The notes under the pieces: generated by a model | What the model was told of the DNA's origin: nothing | The model's database searches: none | Seen by the model: the letters and a program-made list of their open reading frames with translations, nothing else | Part shown: piece after piece, positions 7,872 through 38,847 of the stretch | How positions within the stretch are numbered: the first letter of the stretch is position 1 | How the letters are laid out: each line of letters begins with the position of its first letter | Position numbers and translations under genes: made by a program | NCBI GenBank assembly: GCA_001839685.1 | Contig: MLAK01000567.1 | Span: 8,658 to 72,657 of the forward strand | From: Tritrichomonas foetus | Lineage: Eukaryota; Parabasalia; Tritrichomonadida; Tritrichomonadidae | Reading direction: 5' to 3' | DNA length: 64,000 bases

Positions 7872-8985
7872 TACAGTGTGAATTAATATTAGTTCGTTGT
7901 TAATTTTTTGTATTATTATGATATTTTTTTATATTTATATATGTTAAACATTTAATACGTGGAAATTAATTTTACTCTTTTAAAATATTTATTTTTCTAG
8001 ATTCATTCACCCCTTGTTTTTTAGTTATAAAGAATATATATAACGATGATTAATCGTGTGAAAAACAAAGGATAACCTTTTTCTTGAATCTTGTCGATGC
8101 TGTTGCTCGCAAATACGCAAGACATGTAACTTCTTTACAATCTTTGAAATCCTTCTGATATAAAACAAATCTAAATTCGAACCAACAAATTTAACAATAA
8201 TATGGTTACGATTTTTATGAGAGAGAGTTTTTCGAAAGTATCTCATCTTTGAGAGGATTTTCTTCATGATTCAGAATGTATGGTTCTTTTCGTGAATATA
8301 CCAAATAATAAATGAATATGTTGTGATTCCAACATGTTTCACTCTTGAACATGATTCATGTCAAATGTATCATTTTTGTGTTGAAAAGTAGGAAGAAATT
8401 CATTCCCTTGATTTATATTTTTAATAAAAGCACAGTCAGTCAAATAAAGTTAATTAAGAGAAACAATTTAATGAAAAATTTCGATTCTCTGAAATTCCGT
8501 GGAAAATGATTTATATATTGAGAAACGCTTATTCATTTTGTATTGTCATCTTATAATAATGATAACGTGATAAATGCATCGTATATTCTAACTTATTCAA
8601 TTGTTTTTCATTATTGAATATGATCTTTTTCTGATACATCATTTGAATTTTTCTAACTCCTCTCTATGATCTTAAAACTCATCACATCATTCTATTTTCA
8701 ATGCCCGATCATTTTTCGCTTCACAAAGTGAAATATTTCTATACTTTATATTATGTTCAGATTATGCCAATAGAATCTTTTAGCTATCGAAAAATCACTC
8801 ATACAAAATACTTCACTTATTCATTGATTTAATTATCATTTCAATCCAAACTTATTCGATAACGATATAGTTAGGAGAGACGATAGGTGATTCAAAAAGT
8901 TCCCAAAATTTATTTAAATGAGGTAAATTCAGAGTTTATTTCAATTGAGATTTCTGAAATAATCAAAAACTTAGAATTTTCCTCA
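7872..8985. other. Intergenic, 1.1 kb
   Basis: An AT-rich spacer between the BEACH gene and the MATE gene. It contains an 80-codon ATG frame on the minus strand (8025-8267) with a basic, unrecognised product. Nothing else supported was seen. Confidence 0.5.
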
Positions 8986-10498
8986 ATGGAAGAAGAAATA
9001 AGAAACGAGCCATTGATTAGCAATCCAGATGATTATCATGATCTGAATACAGACGTCACCAAAAAAGAAAAAGAAAGGTTTACAAAATACTCGCCATTAG
9101 TCACGCTTCTTATTATGTCGATCGGGCCTGCCTCTTTATTGGTTCAAGCTATTGGTGAAACGCTAGATATGTTCCAAATATCAAAGAGATACGCAGACGA
9201 GCCAAATTCCCACGCAGTCGAGATGATCGGATTCTCAGCAACGATTTTTCAGACAGTTTTATATATTGGCTACTTTTTCGGACAGGGTTTGACAGCGCGT
9301 GTGACGACGTTGATTGGTCATGGTGAACGTGATGTTGCAGCACATCTTGTTGTCGATATATTTCGAATTGGTTTTGTTTCCAGCATTTTCTTTGCAGTTG
9401 GCTTCATTTATGCAGTTAAACCATTTCTCACATTTGTCGGATGCCCAGAAAGCATGCTGGATGATACGTTTCATTTCATTTTGCCAATTATTATTGCATC
9501 TCCGTTTGTGACTGTTTTCAATATAGCCATTAATTTCTTGCAATGTATAGGTAATTCTATTCTATCGGCTGCGATGAAATCTCTTGCGTATCTCTTCCAA
9601 TGTGGCGTTTTCACACCACTTCTGCTTTTTGCGTTCAAAATTCCAACATCGCTCATTAAACTTTCAATTATTTTATCGCAATCAACAATGGGCATCATAT
9701 TGGTGATTTTAATGTTTAAAGGAAAGTATTCATTAAAGCCAAACTATAAACTCCTGTTTGGCAAGTTCTGCAAAGAAACGCCAAAGGCACCTTTTATTGG
9801 CATCGCCGATGCTTTTCCAATTTTTATGCTTTGTCTTACCACCAACGTTAATTCTTCAATGCTTGACAACCGTTGCACCAAATTACTCTAGAGAAATCGG
9901 TGGAGTTTTCGCCGTACTAAGCAGAATTAATGGATTGGCTGTAGCTTTTCCAAGTTCTATTGGAACAGGCTATCTTTCATCAGGCACACTTGCATTTGGA
10001 AGTGGTGACATTAGAAGATTGGTATCATTAATGCTTTGGGGAATATTAATCGCATTCACACTGACATTCATATGGACACCTGTTGTGGTTCGAAATCCAA
10101 GAACTGTTGCTTCTTTGTTTTTGGATGATAATAATGAATTACAACTGGCTGAACAGCTTCTTCCAATTCCATTCTATACAATTTCTTTGTCTGGAATTGG
10201 ATTGGTAATTGTAATGACTCAACTAGTTGCAGGAAAACCCATTTTCGCCTTACTACCTTCTTTATTCCAATTATTAATTCAAAGTTTCGGTTGTAAATTC
10301 CTCGCAAAGAAGTATTCTGATCATTTAATCAATGTAATGTACATCTACAACATTTCTGATATATCTGTATTTGTTTTAAATATGCTATTGTTTATTTACC
10401 CTGTTGTAGTGATTAGGAGAAAGTTAAAGGCGAATAACGAAAGCAGCATTCTGACATCACTTAATACAACTGATCAGCCTTATGAAACATTTCAATAA
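8986..10498 (+). pseudogene. MATE family multidrug/toxin-extrusion transporter, frameshifted
   Basis: Two overlapping frames together make one MATE antiporter, a polytopic exporter that expels organic cations or drugs in exchange for H+ or Na+. The first frame runs from ATG 8986 (MEEEIRNEPL...) to a TAG at 9889-9891 and covers a cytosolic N-terminus and about six membrane helices. The second frame, one base out of phase, continues with LPPTLILQCLTTVAP and SREIGGVFAVLSRINGLAVAF, then the remaining helices, to the TAA at 10496-10498. The frames switch between about 9815 and 9880, probably near the run of five T at 9821-9825. The extended frame upstream of 8986 would need a GTG start, so I use the ATG. 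Both halves are otherwise intact, so the break is either a recent mutation or an assembly error. Confidence 0.75.
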
Positions 10499-16634: not shown

Positions 16635-19600
16635 TTAAATAAATCGTACAGAATTCGGTCTATCTGATGTATGTGGTGCTGTTGGTGTGCTTGGTACTGA
16701 ACCTTTTATTTTGGAAGGTGTTCCTCTCACTGTATGAGGACGGCTTGTGAGTAGAGTTCCAATTATATCTTTATCAATGTGAATCATGTCAATCATTCCA
16801 CTACAAGGAATAACTTGATAATCAGATGTGTCTTCATCAGTTTCACTTCTGCTTTTTGGGAAAATTTTCTTTCGTGGTGTTCGGCTTGTCATGAAAGATG
16901 TTGAGACAGCATCTTCATATAATGCTGGCGATTGGATAAATGTTTGTCTCAACGTCTCTTTATCCATAATAAGTGTAGTCAATGGAGTTCTTGGTTTTGG
17001 TATATTCAAAAGTAGTCTGTCATTATTAGTATTCAGATTATTCTTCAGATTATTATCTGGAGAGTCATTTAAAGTTGCGTTATCTTCTTCTTCTTCGTAG
17101 TTTATGCGATTGTTATCTTCGTCATCTGCAGCTTCATCTGAATTGTCATTATGATGAGGATCTTGAACGCGCTTGTGAATTTCATCGAATGAAAATTCAT
17201 CGAAAGTGTTTTCAAAAGTTAATGGAATACTTAAAGAAAATGGTGATGGTGCGATAATCCGTTGACTTGGGGTTGCATTGCCAACAGGTGAAAGAAGATT
17301 CGTGTTTATTTTATTAATTTCATCATTAGGGCTGTCATTATTATTTTCATTAGTTATTGTGTTTGTGCTCCGGAATGTATCAATGGTATTATCATCTTGC
17401 AATTTACTACAATTGTCAATCTTTGCTTTTTCATCTTCTTCAAATTTCTTTGCAAGATTTTCTTCGGCTTCTTCTTCTTCTTCTTGGTTGTAAAATTTTT
17501 CTTTATCATTTTGATTTCCATGATTCTGAACTTTTGATTTATTTTTTCTCTTTAATTTCTTCTTTCTATTTCTTCTTTGTTGTGAATTGTTCATATTCAA
17601 TGAAGAATTAAAAAGAAATGATTCTTCACCGCTATAATTTACTGCTTCATCAACAAGGAACTTAGTTAATGCATATTTCTTTAAAATTTCCGAATTCTCA
17701 TCAGGATTTGTAATTCCTAATAAAATGTTAACTTGTTCAGTAATTTCATCGAAACCGGAACTTAATGTGAATGATCCTGGTGGTTCTCTTCCTGGACGAG
17801 CAAGATAAGGAATTAAAGGTGATCCATCATTTGATCTAACGACAATTTTCTTTCCAGTTAGTGAATTTTCATGAACAACAACACATCCAGTTAAATTAAT
17901 TGGACCAGAATCAGGATTGCGAATGTCAAAGTTATTTGAATCAACTTCAATAACTTCTAATTTACTTTGTGGTGAATGAACAACTGAAATTGTCCGTTTT
18001 ATTTCTTTTTCATTAAGTAAAATTGAATTCGGTGGAAGAATGTCTTCAGGATTAACAAAAAAGATTCTCATTGGAGCATCTGCTTCATTTTGGGACTTAA
18101 CTGCAACAGTTCTTGGATGGTCACCTCCTTCTTTGAATAGAATTACAGCTCCTGATGGTAATTTATCGCCTGGTTTGGAAATAATGTATTGGAGTGGCTG
18201 GTCAGATGTTACTGCAACAGACGCTTTTTTGACTATTTTAGTTGTTTGACTGACAACTATGGAATTTTCAGGGATTTCTTCTCCTTTGGGAACCGATGTA
18301 AAAATAAGTTGTTGTCCTGGAGGTGGTTTAACAGCCAGTCTACGTGGGTGTTTTCCGCCTTCTGTAAGAACAACTGCGGCGTTTAATGGAACTTCTTCAT
18401 TTGGTTTTAAGATAACGAATTGTAAAGGATCTCCATTTTTGGATTTAACCACAATTTTTTCGATTTTATCAATCCCATCCAATTCGTTTGAAAGTGCAAC
18501 TGAATTTGGAGGAAGTGGTTCATCTTTTCCAAGAATTATTTGATGAAGTGGACGTCCATTTGCCGCTTGAACAACAATTTTACGTCCACCCACTTCTTCA
18601 CGAATAACCATTGCATTTTCAGGCATTTCATCATTTTCGCTCACTGTTAAGAATTTTAATGGTCTTCCATCAGGTGATCGAACAATAACTTTGAACGGTA
18701 AATCACAATGATCATTTAGATTTTTAGTGATATTATCATAATTTTTGCTGGAATCAGTGAGCTTGTTAAGCGAAATGGAATTTTTAGGTAAAATTTGTCC
18801 TCGATTTGGAATAATAGAAAGTTTTTGTCCATTTTGAGCATTAACTGCAAGTGAACGTGGATTTGAACCACCTTCAGTATCTATAATGACAGAATCAAGA
18901 GGCATATTATCACCTGGTTTCACAATTTTATAACCTAGGGGTAAACCATCTGTTGATACCACATTTAATTTATCATTTATAATAAAAATTGCATTTGAAG
19001 GAATGTTTAATTCATGATTCAAATCAGTTTCATTTGACGAATCATTTCTATTCCTCTTTAAGCAAAGTATTGGGAGATTATCAGGGGCAACAACAGCAAC
19101 TGTTCGGTTTTCTGTTTGAGAAAGTATTAAAGAATTGGGTGGTAACTTTTCACCAGTTTTTACAGTAATTAAATTAAGTGGTTGATTATTGGGGGTTGAT
19201 GCCATCACTTTTTGGAAATCATTCTCATCATCTCCAATAATTATTGAATTACCAGGTGCTTCTTCATTCAATTTAAGGGCCATACAAAGAAGTGGTGAAT
19301 TATTTGGTGAAATTGCTACAACTTTATAGAATTTATCACTTTTTATGACAGCAGAATTTGGAGGAATTTCATCATAAATTCCAAGTGTTTGTAGATGAAT
19401 TGGTTCATCATTATCTGCAAAAACAGCAAAACGGCAATTCTTGAAGGAATTTTCATTAATAGTATCACCATTGAAAATAACGAACGAATTGCTTGGTAAC
19501 TCATCGTTTTCATTCAAAGTGATGCAATCAAGATTTTCTTTATTGGCAGTAACTGCAATAACTTCATCTTTATCACTTTTAATTACAAAAGAATTCAGGG

Positions 19601-22600
19601 GTAAGGTTTCTTCTGGTTTAAAATGATAATAAAACAATGGATTAGATTTTGATGAAATAAGTGCAATTTTGGAATTCTTTGTTTTCTTATAATTCTCAAT
19701 AATTGTCGAATCTCCTTCTTTTTTGGGTGAATTTTGATTATTTAAATTGTGATTCAATGGATTGTGTGTTTCAGCTTCAGAATTGGCTTTTTCATCATTG
19801 TTTGTTGTTTGGGGGCAGATTAAACGAATGGAATTAGATGGAATTTCTTCATCTTCTTGGATTCGTTTAATTATCAATGGCGAAGAAGAAATTCCAATTG
19901 TTGTATCGTCATTTTGGTGTATAACAGTAGAATTTAGAGGAAAATCTTCATTATTTTTAGCAGTAATAATACTCAATTTGTTATCATTAAGAGCAGTAAC
20001 GATGATATTTTCAAGATTGTTTAAATCAATTGCATTATTTTGAGAATTTTCAATATTTGAAACATATTTTAATGGATCTTCGTTTGGAGGAACAGCAATT
20101 GTTAAGTATTTATCATTCTGATATATAATTGTTCCATTTTTAGGGAATTTGAAGTTTTCTTGATCTTTATTATTCAGAAAAGTGAACAAATTTAGTGGCA
20201 TTTTATCACTTGATTCAACGAAGAAATGTGCATCAGCATTAAATTTTCTTTCTTTTTGAAGTATGTTTTCTTGATCGAAATTAAGAAAGCTCTTTCTGGC
20301 AAAAACGTAAGAATTTGATGGAATTTCTTCATTATGATTGAATGTGGCAACGTGAAGAGGCTCATCTCCAGGTGATTTGATAAAAGTGACAAAACTATTC
20401 CTATTATTAAGCATTAAAGAGTTCATGGGTATTTGTTCATCAATTTTTTGTGTAAAAAGTTCGAGTTGTTGATTTTCAGGAGCAAAAACTGAAATTTGAA
20501 GATTTGGATCACCCCATACAAACGAATTTTCAGGAATATTATTATGTTCATCAATAGGAACAGCGAATAATGGCATGCCAGAAGGTGGAATTAAAGTAAC
20601 AATGAAATTTTCATGTTGAACTAATATTTTGGCGTTGTTAGGAATTTCCTCTCGTGAATGAAAAGTTACTAATCTTAAAAACTCACCACCTGATGTTAAA
20701 TAAGCAATTTTTTGTTTGATTTCTGAATCTCTTTCTATTTCCGTTTCATTAGTATGTTTATTTTTATTCTTGGTTTGAATAATTTCTGCTTCATTTTCAT
20801 CTGATCGATTATTTATTTCCGAATTTTGGAGCTTTCCTGGACAATTAATTTGATTTGTTTGAATAAAAATAGCATTATTAGGTCTTTCTTCATCCAATTT
20901 ATGCAACTCAATGAGTTTCAACGGTGAATTAGACGTGACAACAACAGTTTTTGTTTCATCACTTTCAACAACAGCCGAGTTTAGTGGAAGATCTTCACCT
21001 GGTTTAAGAGTTAATAATTGTAAATATTCATTGTCGGATGGAACAACGCATAATTTGTTTGGTATTTCATCTTTAGAAGAGACTTTGATGCAATTGTTGG
21101 AAATTGTATCACCTTTCTTAAAAGTGACTAATTGTAAATGTTCTTCATTATTTGGGATAGCAATAATGTTGGTATTTCCATCGGAATTAATAATGAAAGC
21201 ATTTTGTGGTAATTCTTCATCAGCTTTTTGAGAAATCACATTCAATGGACTTCCATCAGTTGAAGATATTGTCAAAATATATTCGTCTTCGTTATTTTCT
21301 TTTCCATTGTCATCTTTTGTCTTTTGAAGTGGGAGAAGAAAAGAATTAGGTGGTGGTTCTTGACCTTCTCTCAATGAAACAAGTTGTAAAGGTTGATCAT
21401 CAGGCGATACAACAGCTATTGTTGTCTGGCCATATTTTTTTACAACTGCAGAATTTATTGGTACATCTTCTATTTTCTTAAAGGTTATTAAATTAAGAGG
21501 TCTTTCATCTGGTGAAACAACAGCAAATCTGATTTTATTTGTATTCTCTTCTTCATTTTCTTCTTCTTCGTTAAGGATCGGTGATTTTAATGTAAAAGAA
21601 TTCGGAGAAGCTTCTAAATTCTGTTTATCTGTTATTTTCTCTAAAACTAATGGTTGATCATTTGGTGCGATTACTGCCATTATTTGTCCAGTAATTTTAT
21701 CAATATCAAAAATTGCAGAATTTCTTGGAATATCATTAATAGAATTTACAGTTATAATGTTCAATGGCTGCGAATCAATTGAAGAAACAATAATTTTTTG
21801 AGAATCTCTTAAAGGATTTTCAAGTCTACAAATCAAGAATGAATTTGGTTGGAAATTATCTGCTTCTTTTTGATTTTCATCAACTTCAATAAATTGGAGA
21901 TGTTGATTTGTTTTCAAAGTTATAGCAATGGTTATATCATTGTATTGTCTTAAAATAATAGAATTTTTCGGTAATTCATAATCAGATGTAAATGTTGAAA
22001 TAATAAATGGTTCATTACTTGAAACTAGTACATTTTGCATTGGTGAAAAAGTGGAAAGATCCAAAGGAACTGAGCAACTTGGAGGTTCTTCACCTTTATT
22101 TACTTTAACGCAACGTAAATTTTGTTGTTCATTGATAGGAGCAATAGCAAGAATGTTATTTTCATCAGAATGAACAATAAAAGAATCAAAAGGAAGTTCA
22201 TCATTTGGCTTAACTGTAACAAAAGTTAGTAAATAATTGTCTTTTTCTTCATCCTCAGTATTGGTATTACTATACAGATTACTATAAACATTACTTGTAT
22301 TACTTGCTAAATAACTAGGATTAGATATTGTACTCGAGTTACTGTTAGAATTAGGATTACATGCATAAATAAAAAGTTTTGGTTCAACCATCTTTTCTGG
22401 TGGAATATTATTGAAATAAATTACTGCATTATCTGGTACTTTTTCGTCTTCATTATATGAAATATATTTTAGAGATCTATTTTTCTGTGAATAAACTGCA
22501 GTTTTAGTTAAACAATCACTGTTAACAACAATTGCATTTGATGGAAGTCCATCACCTCTTCGAACACTAACCATACATAATCTTTCGCCGTTTGACTGAG

Positions 22601-24746
22601 ATAATAATCCAATTGTCCTTTTAGGTTGAATTGCAGCAGAGGTACAACGAACAGAATTGGGTGGAAGATCAGAACCAATATTCTTTTTATGTAGTTTCAA
22701 AGGTCCTTTAACAACAATTCTCATCCTATTTTCACGATGAACTAAAAATGAATCGGGTGGAACTTCGTCATCAGGACTAAGATAAAGAAATTTTAATGGT
22801 TTTCCATCTTCAAGTGAAGTAACAACATTTTGAGACATGGTTGGACCGATATTATTGGTTTTTCTAACTGTAAATTTCTTAAATAACTCTTTTTGATTAG
22901 GTAAAACTACAATAGTATTTGGAGGAAGATGATTTTGGCCATATTTAAAAGCAAATACTTCAATAGGTTTGTTCGATTTAACTACAACAGATCTTGTGGC
23001 CTCAATTTGAACTATCGCTGAATTAGGAGAAAGATTATCGCCTGGTTTCATATAAACAAATTGCAAAGGAAGTCCACTTTTTGATCGTGCAACATAAATT
23101 GTGGCTGGTGGTGGTCTTGGAATTTTCCTCCGTACAATTCTAACAACTTTAACACGATGTGATATTTTAGAATCAGGCGAATTCGTATTATAATTAGTGC
23201 TATATTCAATAATTTCTGCAGGATTTTCTTTTAATTGGTATTTTTGAGTACGACCTTCTTGCACACTATTTTCTATATCTCCATCGTTACTATCACCTTT
23301 CTTATTTTCATAATATGTGTCTTCATCAATTTCTTTATTGATTTCTTGATCATTGTCTCTATTAGTTTTATTGTCTTCGTTTTCTTGATTTAATTGTTTC
23401 TGTGAAGATTCACTTGAAGAAGATGAGGAGGAGGAAGAAGAAGAAGAAGAAGATGATGATGATGATGATTGTTGTTGTTGTGGATTTTTACTGTTTGTTG
23501 ATTGTGAAAAGTCAATTTTAATACTCATATTTACTTTTTCTGATTCTTGGTTATTTTCACTCTCAAAATTGTCTTTCGAATAACCTGAAATAAAAGCATC
23601 TGAAATTGAATCAATATCATTTGGGTCTAAATTTGATTGGTTTTCGTTAATTATTGGTGACGATCTAACAGAAGGTAAGGGTTTTGGTGATTGAATAGAT
23701 TTGAGTGAAGTAGAGTCAATAAAATCATCAGCAACTTGAGAAGAAGAAGTTGCTTTATATTCAGATGAATGAGTTTGAAGTGAAGGAAGTTTTTCATTCT
23801 CAAATTTCTTTTTTCTGGTAATTGGTTTAGATTTAAATGAAGTTGGTGATTTTTTGCTATTTACACTCCGAATATTATTATCATTGGGAATTTTTTTATT
23901 TCTGTTTTTATTTATCGTATTATTCCCAGTATTTTTTCCACTATTATTTGAATAACATGCATTTTTGAAATCTTCATCATTAATAAGCAATCCAGAATTG
24001 GAATTCATATTACTTTCATTTTTCCGCATTTTTCTATCATTATTTTGATTTATATTGTTAGTTTTAATATTGAAATTAAGTCTCTCATTATTTTCTTGAT
24101 CAGAATCAGAATCTTCACTATTATAATCAAAATCGAACGAATTTTCTGCGGTTTCATTTAATCTCTCAGGTTTATAATATCGTGATTTAAATTTATCTGA
24201 TACATCTTTTTGTCTTTTTCTTTGTTTTGGTGAAACCATTTTACCGTTTGGTAATAAATCACTTTTTGGATCTGTTTGACTGACCTGTGAAAAATCAGCA
24301 ATTGGTGTGCATGATTCTTTATCGAAATCATACATATTTGGTGGTCTTTTTCGAGACGAGTTTGGCACTTTTTGATGCTGCTGTGTTAAAAAAAAATGAG
24401 ATGATGCATCACTCTGTTCAAATTTTTTACTATAATTTTTATGGCTTGATTTTGAAGAATTTTTCGAAAAATTGTGAATCTCATTAAATTCGCGTGCTTT
24501 CGGCGGATGTGGCTTAGGAATGTCCTTTGTGGGTATCAAACTATAAAAATATTCTGATTGTTCGTGAATGTCTTTTCGTAAGTTGATCGAATATTCGAGC
24601 TGCGGTTTTAAATGAAGAGGTGGTTCAACTGGATTCGTATTAACGATAGCTTTCGCTTTCTGTAATTTGAGGACATGATCTGCATAATCTTTTTCTTGCC
24701 TGAACGCGTCGATTGTGTGGTTAAGGCAATGTTCAGATTTCCTCAT
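16635..24746 (-). CDS. Giant tandem-repeat protein, about 42 units of about 42 aa (2,703 aa)
   Basis: I do not recognise this protein. Residues 1-~545 are low-complexity: rich in Asn, Ser, Lys and Asp, with a polyserine run at ~425-447 after QQQQ, and basic patches. Residues ~547-2330 are a chain of about 42 divergent copies of one unit. Its pattern is a hydrophobic strand ending V(V/I)(S/A), then a turn (D/N)(G/D)xPL, a second strand, (K)(P/x)(G/N)(D/E)(E/x), and the most constant block (L/I)PxN(S/A) followed by three or four hydrophobic residues. This predicts two or three short beta strands per unit. Some linkers between units are long, Asn- and Glu-rich inserts. The last ~370 residues are charged (lysine-rich then EEEEE), ending in a Ser/Thr/Pro-rich tail. 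There is no signal peptide, membrane span or catalytic motif. The stop reads TAAA. A structural or cytoskeletal scaffold is a guess from architecture only. Confidence 0.9.
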   Translation of the reverse strand: MRKSEHCLNHTIDAFRQEKDYADHVLKLQKAKAIVNTNPVEPPLHLKPQLEYSINLRKDIHEQSEYFYSLIPTKDIPKPHPPKAREFNEIHNFSKNSSKSSHKNYSKKFEQSDASSHFFLTQQHQKVPNSSRKRPPNMYDFDKESCTPIADFSQVSQTDPKSDLLPNGKMVSPKQRKRQKDVSDKFKSRYYKPERLNETAENSFDFDYNSEDSDSDQENNERLNFNIKTNNINQNNDRKMRKNESNMNSNSGLLINDEDFKNACYSNNSGKNTGNNTINKNRNKKIPNDNNIRSVNSKKSPTSFKSKPITRKKKFENEKLPSLQTHSSEYKATSSSQVADDFIDSTSLKSIQSPKPLPSVRSSPIINENQSNLDPNDIDSISDAFISGYSKDNFESENNQESEKVNMSIKIDFSQSTNSKNPQQQQSSSSSSSSSSSSSSSSSSSESSQKQLNQENEDNKTNRDNDQEINKEIDEDTYYENKKGDSNDGDIENSVQEGRTQKYQLKENPAEIIEYSTNYNTNSPDSKISHRVKVVRIVRRKIPRPPPATIYVARSKSGLPLQFVYMKPGDNLSPNSAIVQIEATRSVVVKSNKPIEVFAFKYGQNHLPPNTIVVLPNQKELFKKFTVRKTNNIGPTMSQNVVTSLEDGKPLKFLYLSPDDEVPPDSFLVHRENRMRIVVKGPLKLHKKNIGSDLPPNSVRCTSAAIQPKRTIGLLSQSNGERLCMVSVRRGDGLPSNAIVVNSDCLTKTAVYSQKNRSLKYISYNEDEKVPDNAVIYFNNIPPEKMVEPKLFIYACNPNSNSNSSTISNPSYLASNTSNVYSNLYSNTNTEDEEKDNYLLTFVTVKPNDELPFDSFIVHSDENNILAIAPINEQQNLRCVKVNKGEEPPSCSVPLDLSTFSPMQNVLVSSNEPFIISTFTSDYELPKNSIILRQYNDITIAITLKTNQHLQFIEVDENQKEADNFQPNSFLICRLENPLRDSQKIIVSSIDSQPLNIITVNSINDIPRNSAIFDIDKITGQIMAVIAPNDQPLVLEKITDKQNLEASPNSFTLKSPILNEEEENEEENTNKIRFAVVSPDERPLNLITFKKIEDVPINSAVVKKYGQTTIAVVSPDDQPLQLVSLREGQEPPPNSFLLPLQKTKDDNGKENNEDEYILTISSTDGSPLNVISQKADEELPQNAFIINSDGNTNIIAIPNNEEHLQLVTFKKGDTISNNCIKVSSKDEIPNKLCVVPSDNEYLQLLTLKPGEDLPLNSAVVESDETKTVVVTSNSPLKLIELHKLDEERPNNAIFIQTNQINCPGKLQNSEINNRSDENEAEIIQTKNKNKHTNETEIERDSEIKQKIAYLTSGGEFLRLVTFHSREEIPNNAKILVQHENFIVTLIPPSGMPLFAVPIDEHNNIPENSFVWGDPNLQISVFAPENQQLELFTQKIDEQIPMNSLMLNNRNSFVTFIKSPGDEPLHVATFNHNEEIPSNSYVFARKSFLNFDQENILQKERKFNADAHFFVESSDKMPLNLFTFLNNKDQENFKFPKNGTIIYQNDKYLTIAVPPNEDPLKYVSNIENSQNNAIDLNNLENIIVTALNDNKLSIITAKNNEDFPLNSTVIHQNDDTTIGISSSPLIIKRIQEDEEIPSNSIRLICPQTTNNDEKANSEAETHNPLNHNLNNQNSPKKEGDSTIIENYKKTKNSKIALISSKSNPLFYYHFKPEETLPLNSFVIKSDKDEVIAVTANKENLDCITLNENDELPSNSFVIFNGDTINENSFKNCRFAVFADNDEPIHLQTLGIYDEIPPNSAVIKSDKFYKVVAISPNNSPLLCMALKLNEEAPGNSIIIGDDENDFQKVMASTPNNQPLNLITVKTGEKLPPNSLILSQTENRTVAVVAPDNLPILCLKRNRNDSSNETDLNHELNIPSNAIFIINDKLNVVSTDGLPLGYKIVKPGDNMPLDSVIIDTEGGSNPRSLAVNAQNGQKLSIIPNRGQILPKNSISLNKLTDSSKNYDNITKNLNDHCDLPFKVIVRSPDGRPLKFLTVSENDEMPENAMVIREEVGGRKIVVQAANGRPLHQIILGKDEPLPPNSVALSNELDGIDKIEKIVVKSKNGDPLQFVILKPNEEVPLNAAVVLTEGGKHPRRLAVKPPPGQQLIFTSVPKGEEIPENSIVVSQTTKIVKKASVAVTSDQPLQYIISKPGDKLPSGAVILFKEGGDHPRTVAVKSQNEADAPMRIFFVNPEDILPPNSILLNEKEIKRTISVVHSPQSKLEVIEVDSNNFDIRNPDSGPINLTGCVVVHENSLTGKKIVVRSNDGSPLIPYLARPGREPPGSFTLSSGFDEITEQVNILLGITNPDENSEILKKYALTKFLVDEAVNYSGEESFLFNSSLNMNNSQQRRNRKKKLKRKNKSKVQNHGNQNDKEKFYNQEEEEEAEENLAKKFEEDEKAKIDNCSKLQDDNTIDTFRSTNTITNENNNDSPNDEINKINTNLLSPVGNATPSQRIIAPSPFSLSIPLTFENTFDEFSFDEIHKRVQDPHHNDNSDEAADDEDNNRINYEEEEDNATLNDSPDNNLKNNLNTNNDRLLLNIPKPRTPLTTLIMDKETLRQTFIQSPALYEDAVSTSFMTSRTPRKKIFPKSRSETDEDTSDYQVIPCSGMIDMIHIDKDIIGTLLTSRPHTVRGTPSKIKGSVPSTPTAPHTSDRPNSVRFI
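17750..23110 (-). repeat. Coding tandem-repeat region (about 42 protein repeats)
   Basis: This stretch encodes the repeat domain of the giant protein. Units are 30-60 residues apart and have diverged enough that the DNA no longer looks like a simple tandem array. It is therefore an old expansion under protein-level constraint. Three late units share an extra EGGxxPRxxAV linker (EGGSNPRSLAV, EGGKHPRRLAV, EGGDHPRTVAV), suggesting later block duplication. Confidence 0.85.
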
Positions 24747-35430: not shown

Positions 35431-38400
35431 ATGTCTGGAAGAGAGTCTTCAATGAAAGCTGGAATTCTTAACAAAAGTTGGGAAGTAACACAAATCAAAG
35501 TGTTTAGTAGATGGTGTGCTAAGCATTTACGCACAAGGAAGCTCGAGTTTGAAACTATTGAAAAAGATTTTTCTGATGGTGTTAAACTTATTAACCTGTT
35601 AGAAGTAATAGGAAAAGAGAAGATGGATGGTAGATGGCATGCAGCTCCTAAGAACAGATTCCAAAAATTAGAAAACATTCAATTAGCTATCCACTACATT
35701 ACCGACTTAAAGAAAATTAAGCTTATTGGTATCCACCCAGAAGACATTGTAGATTGCAATCTCAAGTTAACATTGGGGTTAATTTGGTCATGCATTAATA
35801 AATTTGTTATTGAAGACATTTCTGTGGAAGAAGCAACAGCAAGAGATGCTTTACTCATTTGGTGTAAGAAGAACACTCAAGGATATGAAGGTGTTAATAT
35901 AACCAACTTTACAACCTCTTGGTCTTCTGGTCTTGCATTTTGTGCACTTATAAATCACTTTAGACCAGAATTACTTGATTACAATGCACTTGATAAGAGC
36001 AATCACACACAAAATTGTATCACTGCTTTTGAAGCCTGCAAAGAACTCGGTATTACAGTTTTCTTAGATCCAGAAGATCTTGTTGACACAACTCCTGATG
36101 ATAAATCAGTTGTTACACAAGCATCAGAGTTTTTCCACTTCTTTGCTGGTGAATCAAGGACAATTGCAATGGCAGATAAGATTAAAAACACAATCTCAAT
36201 TCAAAAGTTTTTGTCTGATCTGAAAAATGATTATGAAAAGCAAGCACAAATTACAATTGATGCAATCAGTGTTGAAAATGAAAATATCACCAACACTAAC
36301 TATGAAAGGACTGTTCCAGGTGTCAAAGCAAGGCTTGTTGATGTTGTTAAATTTGGACGTGTAGGAAGACCACAAATTATTGAGCTTCGTGCAACCGCTC
36401 TTCGTACATGGGCAACTTTAATTACCAATTGTAAGACTCATTCAAGAGTTGTTCCAACACCAAAAGAAGGATTAGAACCAGCTGCTTTAGATAAAGCAGT
36501 TAATGATCTTGAGAATATTCAAGCACAAACTCGAATTAATTTAACACAAGAACTTCATGAAATAGAAAATGCTTTATTGACAGCATTTGATAATCAATGT
36601 GAAACTGTTATTAATTCATGCCAGGATATTAGAAATAGATCTATTTCATTAAATGGAACATTAAGAGAACAGAGAGATATTTTGATTTCACTACTTGATG
36701 AAGCAAATAATTTATCAGCAAGTGTTGATGCTCTTCAGGCCCCATTTGATGAGTTATGCTCTTATCATTTGAATGATCGTTCTAATAATACAACTTATTC
36801 CATACAAAGTGAACTATTTCAATTAATTTCACATATTAAGCGTTTAATAGATCAAAGTAATAACAATATCACTGAAGAAGAAAACCAAGCTAAAATTTTG
36901 GCATACAATGAAAAAGCACAATATTATGTTGATGAATGCTCTGCTCTTGAAGCATCATTTAGCGAAATTCAAGGATCAATTGATGAAAGAAGGGATGCTT
37001 TAATTGCAAAACAAGAAGAAATAACAACAAAAAGAAATGGTGTTTCAAATTTGAATGAAGACTTTGCCGCATTAGAGCATGAAGGACTTCATCATAGCAT
37101 TGTGAATACACCAGCAACAATTACATCAACATATTCAAAACTTTTAACTACAGCTATTGTTGACACAGGAAAAGTATTTGATGAAATGGTCAATGCTTTT
37201 GATTTATTAACTTTAGAGCTTGATAATAGAATAAAAGATCTCAATAATCAAGCAAATAATCTTTCTGGATCTTTCACAGAACAGCGTGATACAATTGAAT
37301 CGTTGACAACACAAGCACATAATCTTCAATCTGAAATTCCAACAGTTCTTAATGAGTCATATGATAAGATATGTCAATTCAAACTTCAATGGAATATTAA
37401 ATTATCCCCAACTGATGTTCTTGGTTCAGTTGAACAATTATTGATTTTGCTTGCTAAGCTTACAGAGCAAAATAAATCAAACTTACTCAAAGAATCTAAT
37501 GATGACCGTATCAATCAATATAATCAACTTGCTGCGACCTACGTCCAAGCATCTCAAGATTTCCATGAAACTGTGAATGCAATTCAAAATGAGACTGATA
37601 TTGCTGCTAAGAGATCTCAATATCTTGAAAAGCAACATGAATTAGCACAAAAGCGTGAGGAACTCCAAGCCTTAAATGAGCCATATTTGGAACTTGAAAG
37701 AAATGCTCTTCATATGAGAATAGATGCAACACCATCATCGATTTCTTCCTACTATGCATCAATTTTATCAGAAATATCAAATGCTTTGAACATTATTTAT
37801 TCTGAGATGGTTTCTAATTATGATGAGAAAGCAAACGCTATTGCAGACAGTATTAAAGAATTAGACAATCAACAGAAATCACTGAGTGAGAATCTTGAAG
37901 AACGTAAAAATGCTATTTCACAGTTAATTTCTCAAACAGAACCAATTGGTAATGAAATTGGAACACTTAACGAGCCATATGAAGAATTGACACAATACAA
38001 ACTTAATTATAAGGCTAAATCCTCACCATCAGATATCCAAGGAATGCTTGAACAATTATCTTCCAGATTACGCCACTTGGAACAAAACAATGAAGGAAGT
38101 ATCAGAAAAGCTAACAATGCTGAGCGTGTTTCTTCATATAATGAAAAGGCCAACGCACTTGTTGATGAAATTAAATCTCTTGAAAAATCAGTATCCAATG
38201 TCGATGGTTCAAATGAAGAGAAGCAACAAAAACTTTATGCTAAAGAATTAGAAATTAAAGCCAAATTAGATAATGTCCAAGAACTTTCTGGCATTTATGA
38301 TGATCTTGAAAGAGATGAACTTCATCTTGAAATTGAAAACACACCTTCAGCAATCATTACATTTATTAACAGCGCAATTTCCAATGCTGAAACAATTATT

Positions 38401-38847
38401 CAAGCCATCGATAAAGCAATTGCAGCAGCTAAAGGCCTTGAAATTTCAGAAGAACAACTCGCAGAGTTCAGAGAAACATTTACACACTTCGATAAAACAG
38501 GTGATAAGATCCTTGCTCCGTATGAACTTGTTGCATGCCTTACTGCAATGGGTGATTCAATTACTGAAGAAGAAGCAGCCAAAATAGCAGCTAAATATTC
38601 GGGCGGAAAGAGTGGACTTGATTTCGACAGTTATGTTCGCTTTATGCTTGACAGATATTCAAAGAAAGAAACACCAGAAAGCACAAAAGAAGCATTTGCT
38701 GCAATTGCTGCAAATCAACCAGTCATCAATGATGAACAACTCGCCAGATACTTTAGCCCTGAAGATTGTGAATTTATGAAGACACAAATGACACCAGTTG
38801 ATGGTGGATATGATTTTGCTGCATGGGTTGATTCAATTTACGCGTAA
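35431..38847 (+). CDS. Alpha-actinin with tandemly expanded rod (1,138 aa)
   Basis: An actin cross-linker of the spectrin superfamily, acting in the cortical and adhesive cytoskeleton. Two calponin-homology domains lie at ~17-125 (VFSRWCAKHLRTR..., DGVKLINLLEVIG) and ~135-245 (ALLIWCKKNTQGY..., SGLAFCALINHFRPELLDY). A long helical rod spans ~250-1010. The C-terminus (~1010-1138) is calmodulin-like with EF-hand pairs (FRETFTHFDKTGDKILAPYEL; GLDFDSYVRFML) and ends in a family-typical AAWVDSIYA. The rod contains a repeated module of about 205 residues: LHHSI, LHMRI and LHLEI landmarks begin at residues 553, 760 and 964. The first EF loop keeps several acidic ligands; the second pair looks degenerate. 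Human alpha-actinin is about 890 aa, so this rod is longer. The stop reads TAAA. Confidence 0.93.
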   Translation: MSGRESSMKAGILNKSWEVTQIKVFSRWCAKHLRTRKLEFETIEKDFSDGVKLINLLEVIGKEKMDGRWHAAPKNRFQKLENIQLAIHYITDLKKIKLIGIHPEDIVDCNLKLTLGLIWSCINKFVIEDISVEEATARDALLIWCKKNTQGYEGVNITNFTTSWSSGLAFCALINHFRPELLDYNALDKSNHTQNCITAFEACKELGITVFLDPEDLVDTTPDDKSVVTQASEFFHFFAGESRTIAMADKIKNTISIQKFLSDLKNDYEKQAQITIDAISVENENITNTNYERTVPGVKARLVDVVKFGRVGRPQIIELRATALRTWATLITNCKTHSRVVPTPKEGLEPAALDKAVNDLENIQAQTRINLTQELHEIENALLTAFDNQCETVINSCQDIRNRSISLNGTLREQRDILISLLDEANNLSASVDALQAPFDELCSYHLNDRSNNTTYSIQSELFQLISHIKRLIDQSNNNITEEENQAKILAYNEKAQYYVDECSALEASFSEIQGSIDERRDALIAKQEEITTKRNGVSNLNEDFAALEHEGLHHSIVNTPATITSTYSKLLTTAIVDTGKVFDEMVNAFDLLTLELDNRIKDLNNQANNLSGSFTEQRDTIESLTTQAHNLQSEIPTVLNESYDKICQFKLQWNIKLSPTDVLGSVEQLLILLAKLTEQNKSNLLKESNDDRINQYNQLAATYVQASQDFHETVNAIQNETDIAAKRSQYLEKQHELAQKREELQALNEPYLELERNALHMRIDATPSSISSYYASILSEISNALNIIYSEMVSNYDEKANAIADSIKELDNQQKSLSENLEERKNAISQLISQTEPIGNEIGTLNEPYEELTQYKLNYKAKSSPSDIQGMLEQLSSRLRHLEQNNEGSIRKANNAERVSSYNEKANALVDEIKSLEKSVSNVDGSNEEKQQKLYAKELEIKAKLDNVQELSGIYDDLERDELHLEIENTPSAIITFINSAISNAETIIQAIDKAIAAAKGLEISEEQLAEFRETFTHFDKTGDKILAPYELVACLTAMGDSITEEEAAKIAAKYSGGKSGLDFDSYVRFMLDRYSKKETPESTKEAFAAIAANQPVINDEQLARYFSPEDCEFMKTQMTPVDGGYDFAAWVDSIYA
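36610..38420 (+). repeat. About 205-residue tandem module repeated three times in the alpha-actinin rod
   Basis: Matching blocks recur in order: an EQRDxI/ERKNAI block near residues 412, 611 and 816, a (PY/PF)xEL block, a YNEKA/YNQLA block, and LHxxIxxTPxxI at 553, 760 and 964. Spacing is 207 then 204 residues. Copies have diverged at DNA level but are easily aligned as protein. Confidence 0.75.

Follow-up and report, generated by a model that had tools for sequence, protein, structure and literature searches.

What is the giant repeat protein encoded at this locus of Tritrichomonas foetus, and where in the cell might it act? The window, a stretch of 64,000 nucleotides of contig MLAK01000567.1, carries the gene for this protein, here called P0001 (Table 1). 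The first-pass annotation, made from the sequence, had described about 42 copies of a β-type repeat between low-complexity arms, found no family name for the unit, and proposed a rod or sheet-like scaffold, possibly of the cytoskeleton. The reading we favour, at a probability of about 0.5, is a giant tandem-β protein that acts as a flagellar scaffold or tether and is docked on axonemal microtubules by a CFAP97-like tip. We favour it because the first residues of P0001 resemble a flagellar protein family.

An iterated hidden Markov model (HMM) of the repeat unit, seeded from 30 matches, some with a one-residue overlap, gave 42 matches in P0001 and 39 in P0002, a diverged relative of 2575 amino acids. 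When the residues of the array were shuffled, 125 of 200 shuffles gave some match (six or fewer each), the best at 7.5 bits. This score was exceeded by 35 of the 42 matches in P0001 and by 34 of the 39 in P0002. The proposed copy number held. Composition likewise confirmed the low-complexity arms: 15.9% serine, 11.9% asparagine and 10.8% lysine in the N-terminal arm (546 amino acids), and 11.8% asparagine, 8.9% glutamate and 8.6% aspartate in the C-terminal arm (372 amino acids). The signature motifs fared less well. The block (L/I)PxN(S/A) had been called near-invariant; strict PxN(S/A) occurred 29 times and the relaxed form Px(N/D)(S/A/T/G) 34 times, and the motif is therefore common rather than near-invariant. 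The turn (D/N)GxPL, taken as a feature of the unit, was found only seven times even as (D/N)GxP(L/I/Y).

The spacing of the units showed a higher-order module. For this analysis, a fragment at residues 1218-1230 of P0001 was discarded and a start at 2254 was set by eye, again giving 42 units; in P0002, starts at 668, 744 and 2119 were set by eye, also giving 42. The commonest spacing in P0001 was 36 residues, corresponding to a unit of about 36 amino acids. Within pairs of units, the median spacing was 36 in P0001 and 37 in P0002 (standard deviation <3; maximum 46 and 47). Between pairs, the range was 32-81 residues in P0001 and 33-106 in P0002, and most long inserts lay there. In a permutation test, alternation as strong as that in P0001 was seen in 0 of 100,000 trials (p 2.6e-4 for P0002). 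Because the spacing alternates, we take the pair as the module: a domain of about 73 residues, predicted to be six-stranded, of which the unit of about 36 amino acids is one half. A pair profile detected 21 domains in P0001, each with an expectation value (E) of 4.1e-10 or better, and 21 in P0002. The profile was built from 40 pairs, which match by construction; domains 6 and 19 of P0002, which were excluded from it, were still detected (E 5.9e-14 and 2.6e-19). A further match in P0001, at residues 242-288, scored -7.7 and was left uncounted. The linkers joining the domains of P0001 were 0 to 49 residues long, 251 residues in total.

Four of the 21 domains were modelled with AlphaFold2. Domain 7, modelled singly, was compact and six-stranded, with a mean predicted local distance difference test score (pLDDT) of 93.5 and a predicted template modelling score (pTM) of 0.74. 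The joint model of domains 18-20 had 18 strands, six per pair (mean pLDDT 81.7, pTM 0.45), with weak spots at both inter-pair linkers and one short helix at its end. The domain is thus predicted to be a compact all-β fold of two three-strand halves. The first-pass annotation was right to expect a repeated β fold, which appeared in the models of both one pair and three consecutive pairs, but its unit is half of a domain and has three modelled strands instead of two. Its single rod or sheet gives way to a different picture, as the models suggest beads on variable linkers.

The N-terminus has a motif reminiscent of the CFAP97/Hemingway family, and this likeness was tested by profile comparison. 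The query profile was made from three N-termini, those of P0001, P0002 and a paralog on contig C570. Eight CFAP97-type segments from the genome of the window made up the target; six of them exceed the Pfam cut-off and two fall short of it, and two further loci were dropped by eye. With hhalign, the two profiles matched with a probability of 84.4% (P 7.1e-6) over residues 1-46, whereas none of 200 column shuffles exceeded 3.9%. The alignment with the genome's own CFAP97 proteins was collinear and lay at the extreme N-terminus on both sides. A MAFFT alignment with the CFAP97 proteins continued past residue 46, at 13-18% identity to P0001, whereas hhalign aligned residues 1-46 only. A search of PDB returned three CFAP97-type chains (named CFAP97 or KIAA1430 homologue), ranked under a designed protein that we took as a chance match. 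These chains have 158, 161 and 231 amino acids, too short for such a β-array. According to published work, axonemes depend on CFAP97-family proteins for their assembly or stability (PMC10425847, PMC7444823), and CFAP97D1 is doublet-associated in mouse sperm, forming a module with TSSK6 and EFCAB3 (PMC13066092).

The genome carries four closely similar CFAP97-domain genes (L005-L008, on contigs C188, C600, C106 and C285), a small family expansion. Two more genes, L009 and L010, also exceed the Pfam cut-off.

Several results weigh against the flagellar reading. The Pfam model of CFAP97 (PF13879, cut-off 25.6 bits) had no match at the N-terminus of P0001, of P0002 or of the paralog, and the window gene was missing from the 12 genome matches of this model (six over the cut-off). 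The 46 aligned residues are about half of a domain of about 100 residues. When the N-termini were compared singly with the CFAP97 segments, P0001 reached just 13.6%, and the other two reached 56.9% and 55.1%, all at identical columns. With the six over-cut-off segments alone as target, the probability was 62.3% (P 7.4e-5). In the reverse search, CFAP97 frames ranked next below the gene's own family with nonsignificant scores (best E 0.048), in a set of 273 frames from 22 loci that were partly picked through CFAP97 matches. CFAP97 is absent from the main text of the paper on Trichomonas vaginalis doublets, and the large unassigned density in that paper, OJMOP1, is described there as ankyrin with coiled coil, unlike P0001 (PMC12041511). 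As the profile match came without Pfam detection, we label the segment CFAP97-like and do not file it as a member of the family.

The β domain had no credible relative in the libraries searched. No family was above the cut-off for whole P0001 in Pfam or in NCBIfam, and PDB sequences had no credible match to the unit or the domain. These searches agreed with the earlier failure to name a family. No such repeat protein was named in the literature searched (titles and abstract openings, with subscription journals thinly covered). No relative was confirmed in a prokaryote genome collection or among viral contigs, both weak tests because of the search patterns. Within the T. foetus genome (63.7 Mb, 1064 contigs, the window gene being on contig C177), a 601-base probe from the array matched only itself, and no credible relative was found in the rest of the genome.

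Alternatively, the domain may be a known fold, such as an immunoglobulin (Ig)-like fold, a cradle-loop barrel or a relative of propeller blades, that has diverged beyond the reach of the tools. P0001 would then be an ordinary HYDIN-like giant, which is compatible with a flagellar scaffold. HYDIN has a ciliary role, and the likeness lies in the many tandem β-domains of a giant protein, which makes HYDIN an analogue in its way of working. The domains are different, with about 73 residues, six predicted strands and two similar halves in P0001 against an Ig model of 100 positions. No Pfam Ig family, including HYDIN/ASH Ig (PF22544), was matched in whole P0001 or in 40 domains scanned singly, and contig C177 was not among the HYDIN-Ig matches listed (in a scan that scored 150 of the 239 candidates). 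The single-domain scans gave 20 scattered Pfam families, each with one member only and with E of 0.012 or worse. Foldseek with the domain model reached a best E of 0.57 in PDB and 0.50 in BFVD in spite of the high pLDDT of the model. Its PDB list included two filamin-domain entries (E 3.7 and 4.4; template modelling score 0.23 and 0.21). We regard a known fold in disguise as possible but doubtful. Titin and filamin are tandem β-domain tethers and are similar to P0001 in placing β-domains like beads on a string across a distance, but P0001 had no Pfam Ig or filamin match.

Ciliated organisms typically carry one HYDIN gene or a few. In the T. foetus genome, there were at least 145 HYDIN-type Ig matches in at least 34 frames, at least 21 of which were 2,771-3,207 amino acids long. 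They were on contigs C537, C159, C658, C292, C155, C681, C976 and others (L026-L028). This tally is of the 150 candidates scored, with frames counted by hand, and the model also matches in 4 of 14 control genomes.

P0002 was the sole match of the protein search with P0001, and it alone was returned by two more searches with queries including P0002; P0001 itself was not returned by the protein searches. The two proteins were 36% identical over 1955 columns (BLASTP) and aligned along the array and both termini, with 57% identity in the N-terminal module and 43% in the array (ungapped columns). For 18 of the 21 P0001 domains, the best match was the P0002 domain of the same index; in the reverse direction, this held for 15 of 21. 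None of the 21 domains of P0001, counted within that protein, scored a sibling above its P0002 counterpart. From this domain-by-domain correspondence, we infer that the array was complete with 21 domains before the P0001 and P0002 lineages diverged and was probably not homogenised afterwards.

Identity to P0002 was 49, 57, 56 and 60% for domains 17, 18, 19 and 20, and it was also high outside this run for domains 2 (55%) and 7 (57%). A basic hairpin, EGG(S/K/D)(N/H)PR, was present in domains 17, 19 and 20 (window positions 18111-18875, minus strand), and domain 18 had the shorter EEVGGRK. The hairpin of domain 19 was the same in P0001 and P0002 (EGGKHPRRLAVK), and domain 20 of P0002 had EGGDDAR. 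The run of domains 17-20 is a candidate binding face.

In the protein search of the genome itself (E 0.001, 15 candidates scored), only the window gene and the C570 paralog were found, the latter matched over residues 1-126 only. This paralog (L004:3523-5628, minus strand) encodes 701 amino acids with the N-terminal module and the arm motifs SQFFLT, RPxNxYDFD and KFxxRxYK. It terminates in a basic stretch resembling the one that precedes the array of P0001, and no β-domain was detected in a surrounding region of 9 kb.

From an architecture that is observed or confidently predicted, we infer cellular location and function as follows. The N-terminal tip would dock on doublet microtubules, and the β string would span a fixed distance: 21 domains of about 73 residues plus the linker residues would make tens of nanometres. 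The reach would be set by the fixed copy number. At the far end, partners may be bound by the hairpin-bearing domains 17-20 together with the conserved islands of the C-terminal arm. The flagellar scaffold is supported by the presence of 21 domains in both P0001 and P0002 and of six CFAP97 genes over the Pfam cut-off in the genome. The CFAP97-like N-terminus also lends indirect support to the earlier proposal of a cytoskeletal role. A more ambitious version seems tentative to us. In it, a new β fold, a duplicated three-strand half of about 36 residues, was multiplied to exactly 21 copies and joined to a microtubule-docking tip of the CFAP97 type. The resulting flagellar ruler or spring would be a lineage-specific equivalent of HYDIN or titin, made of a domain that is unrelated to theirs.

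Two other locations were weighed. P0001 could serve more generally as a scaffold or hub in the cytoplasm or at the cortex, with peptide-binding β beads and linear motifs in its arms, the CFAP97 likeness being due to chance or repurposing. The arms are indeed long and of low complexity with short conserved islands, the CFAP97 match is partial, and the C570 paralog, which retains the N-terminal module and lacks the β-domain, implies that the module can function independently of the array. Such a hub appears unlikely, however, as chance would have to bring three N-termini to the same CFAP97 columns at the extreme N-end, far above the shuffles. Copy number in loose hubs usually varies, and it is the same in P0001 and P0002.

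Still less probable, in our view, is that P0001 belongs to the striated root fibres (costa or parabasal filaments), where the β string would link periodic bands. A fixed domain number in a giant protein would suit a periodic fibre, and trichomonad root fibres contain many proteins without known domains, a review reporting 44 hypothetical proteins from enriched costa fractions (PMC13071381). The same review characterises costain 1-3, the named proteins of the costa, as mainly α-helical and likely coiled-coil, and puts the main costa constituents at 100-150 kDa, whereas P0001 would have about 300 kDa, its modelled domains are all-β, and its N-terminus resembles a ciliary family. The costains, like the proteins of the T. 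vaginalis doublet, are large, lineage-restricted and cytoskeletal and occur in flagellates, a description that may also fit P0001. Membership in the costain type was rejected, the four modelled domains being β and not α-helical or coiled coil.

The features of the gene are listed in Table 1.

Table 1. Features of the P0001 gene, in window positions
Feature	Residues	Position	Strand	Basis or remark
Whole gene		16635..24746	-	2703 amino acids, ATG to stop, single frame without internal stop
CFAP97/Hemingway-like N-terminal segment	1-46	24609..24746	-	hhalign; Pfam PF13879 silent
Conserved N-terminal module	1-95	24462..24746	-	Common to P0002 (57% identity) and the 701-amino-acid C570 paralog
Ser/Asn/Lys-rich arm, probably disordered	96-546	23109..24461	-	Composition, from which disorder is inferred
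Array of 21 two-unit β domains (42 units)	547-2331	17754..23108	-	Unit and pair profiles
Domain 7	1070-1141	21324..21539	-	AlphaFold2, modelled singly
Domains 18-20	2016-2255	17982..18701	-	AlphaFold2, modelled jointly
Domains 17-20, best-conserved domain run		18006..18974	-	Per-domain identity to P0002
Acidic/Asn-rich C-terminal arm	2332-2703	16638..17753	-	Composition and comparison with P0002

Short conserved islands were found in the N-terminal arm (for example, residues 136-147 and 182-200), and the array is preceded by a basic stretch that starts near residue 529. The C-terminal arm had conserved islands at 2583-2608 and 2642-2660 and the conserved final stretch PNSVRF(I/V). A membrane span in P0001 is unlikely, with a top 19-residue hydropathy mean of 1.42. 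An intron pattern of the T. vaginalis type had no match. A WW domain has two conserved tryptophans in each three-strand unit of about 35 residues; it was rejected for P0001, which has one tryptophan in 2703 residues. Elsewhere in the window, two overlapping frames at 8887-10498 (plus strand) looked by eye like the pieces of a single MATE-type transporter that a frameshift or an assembly error had divided. A protein of 1138 amino acids at 35431-38847 (plus strand) carries two stretches of calponin homology (E 9e-43 in Pfam) and is a likely actin-binding neighbour.

If the flagellar reading is true, P0001 adds a repeat-domain family missing from the searched libraries and a giant flagellar scaffold with an equal domain number in two proteins despite 30-60% domain identity. 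The ruler hypothesis would then be directly testable by comparing reach with domain number. Several outer densities are still without an assignment in the T. vaginalis doublet paper (PMC12041511). P0001 would be a candidate for such densities of the trichomonad axoneme, for example MOP1, OJMOP2 and the globular densities close to the heads of the radial spokes.
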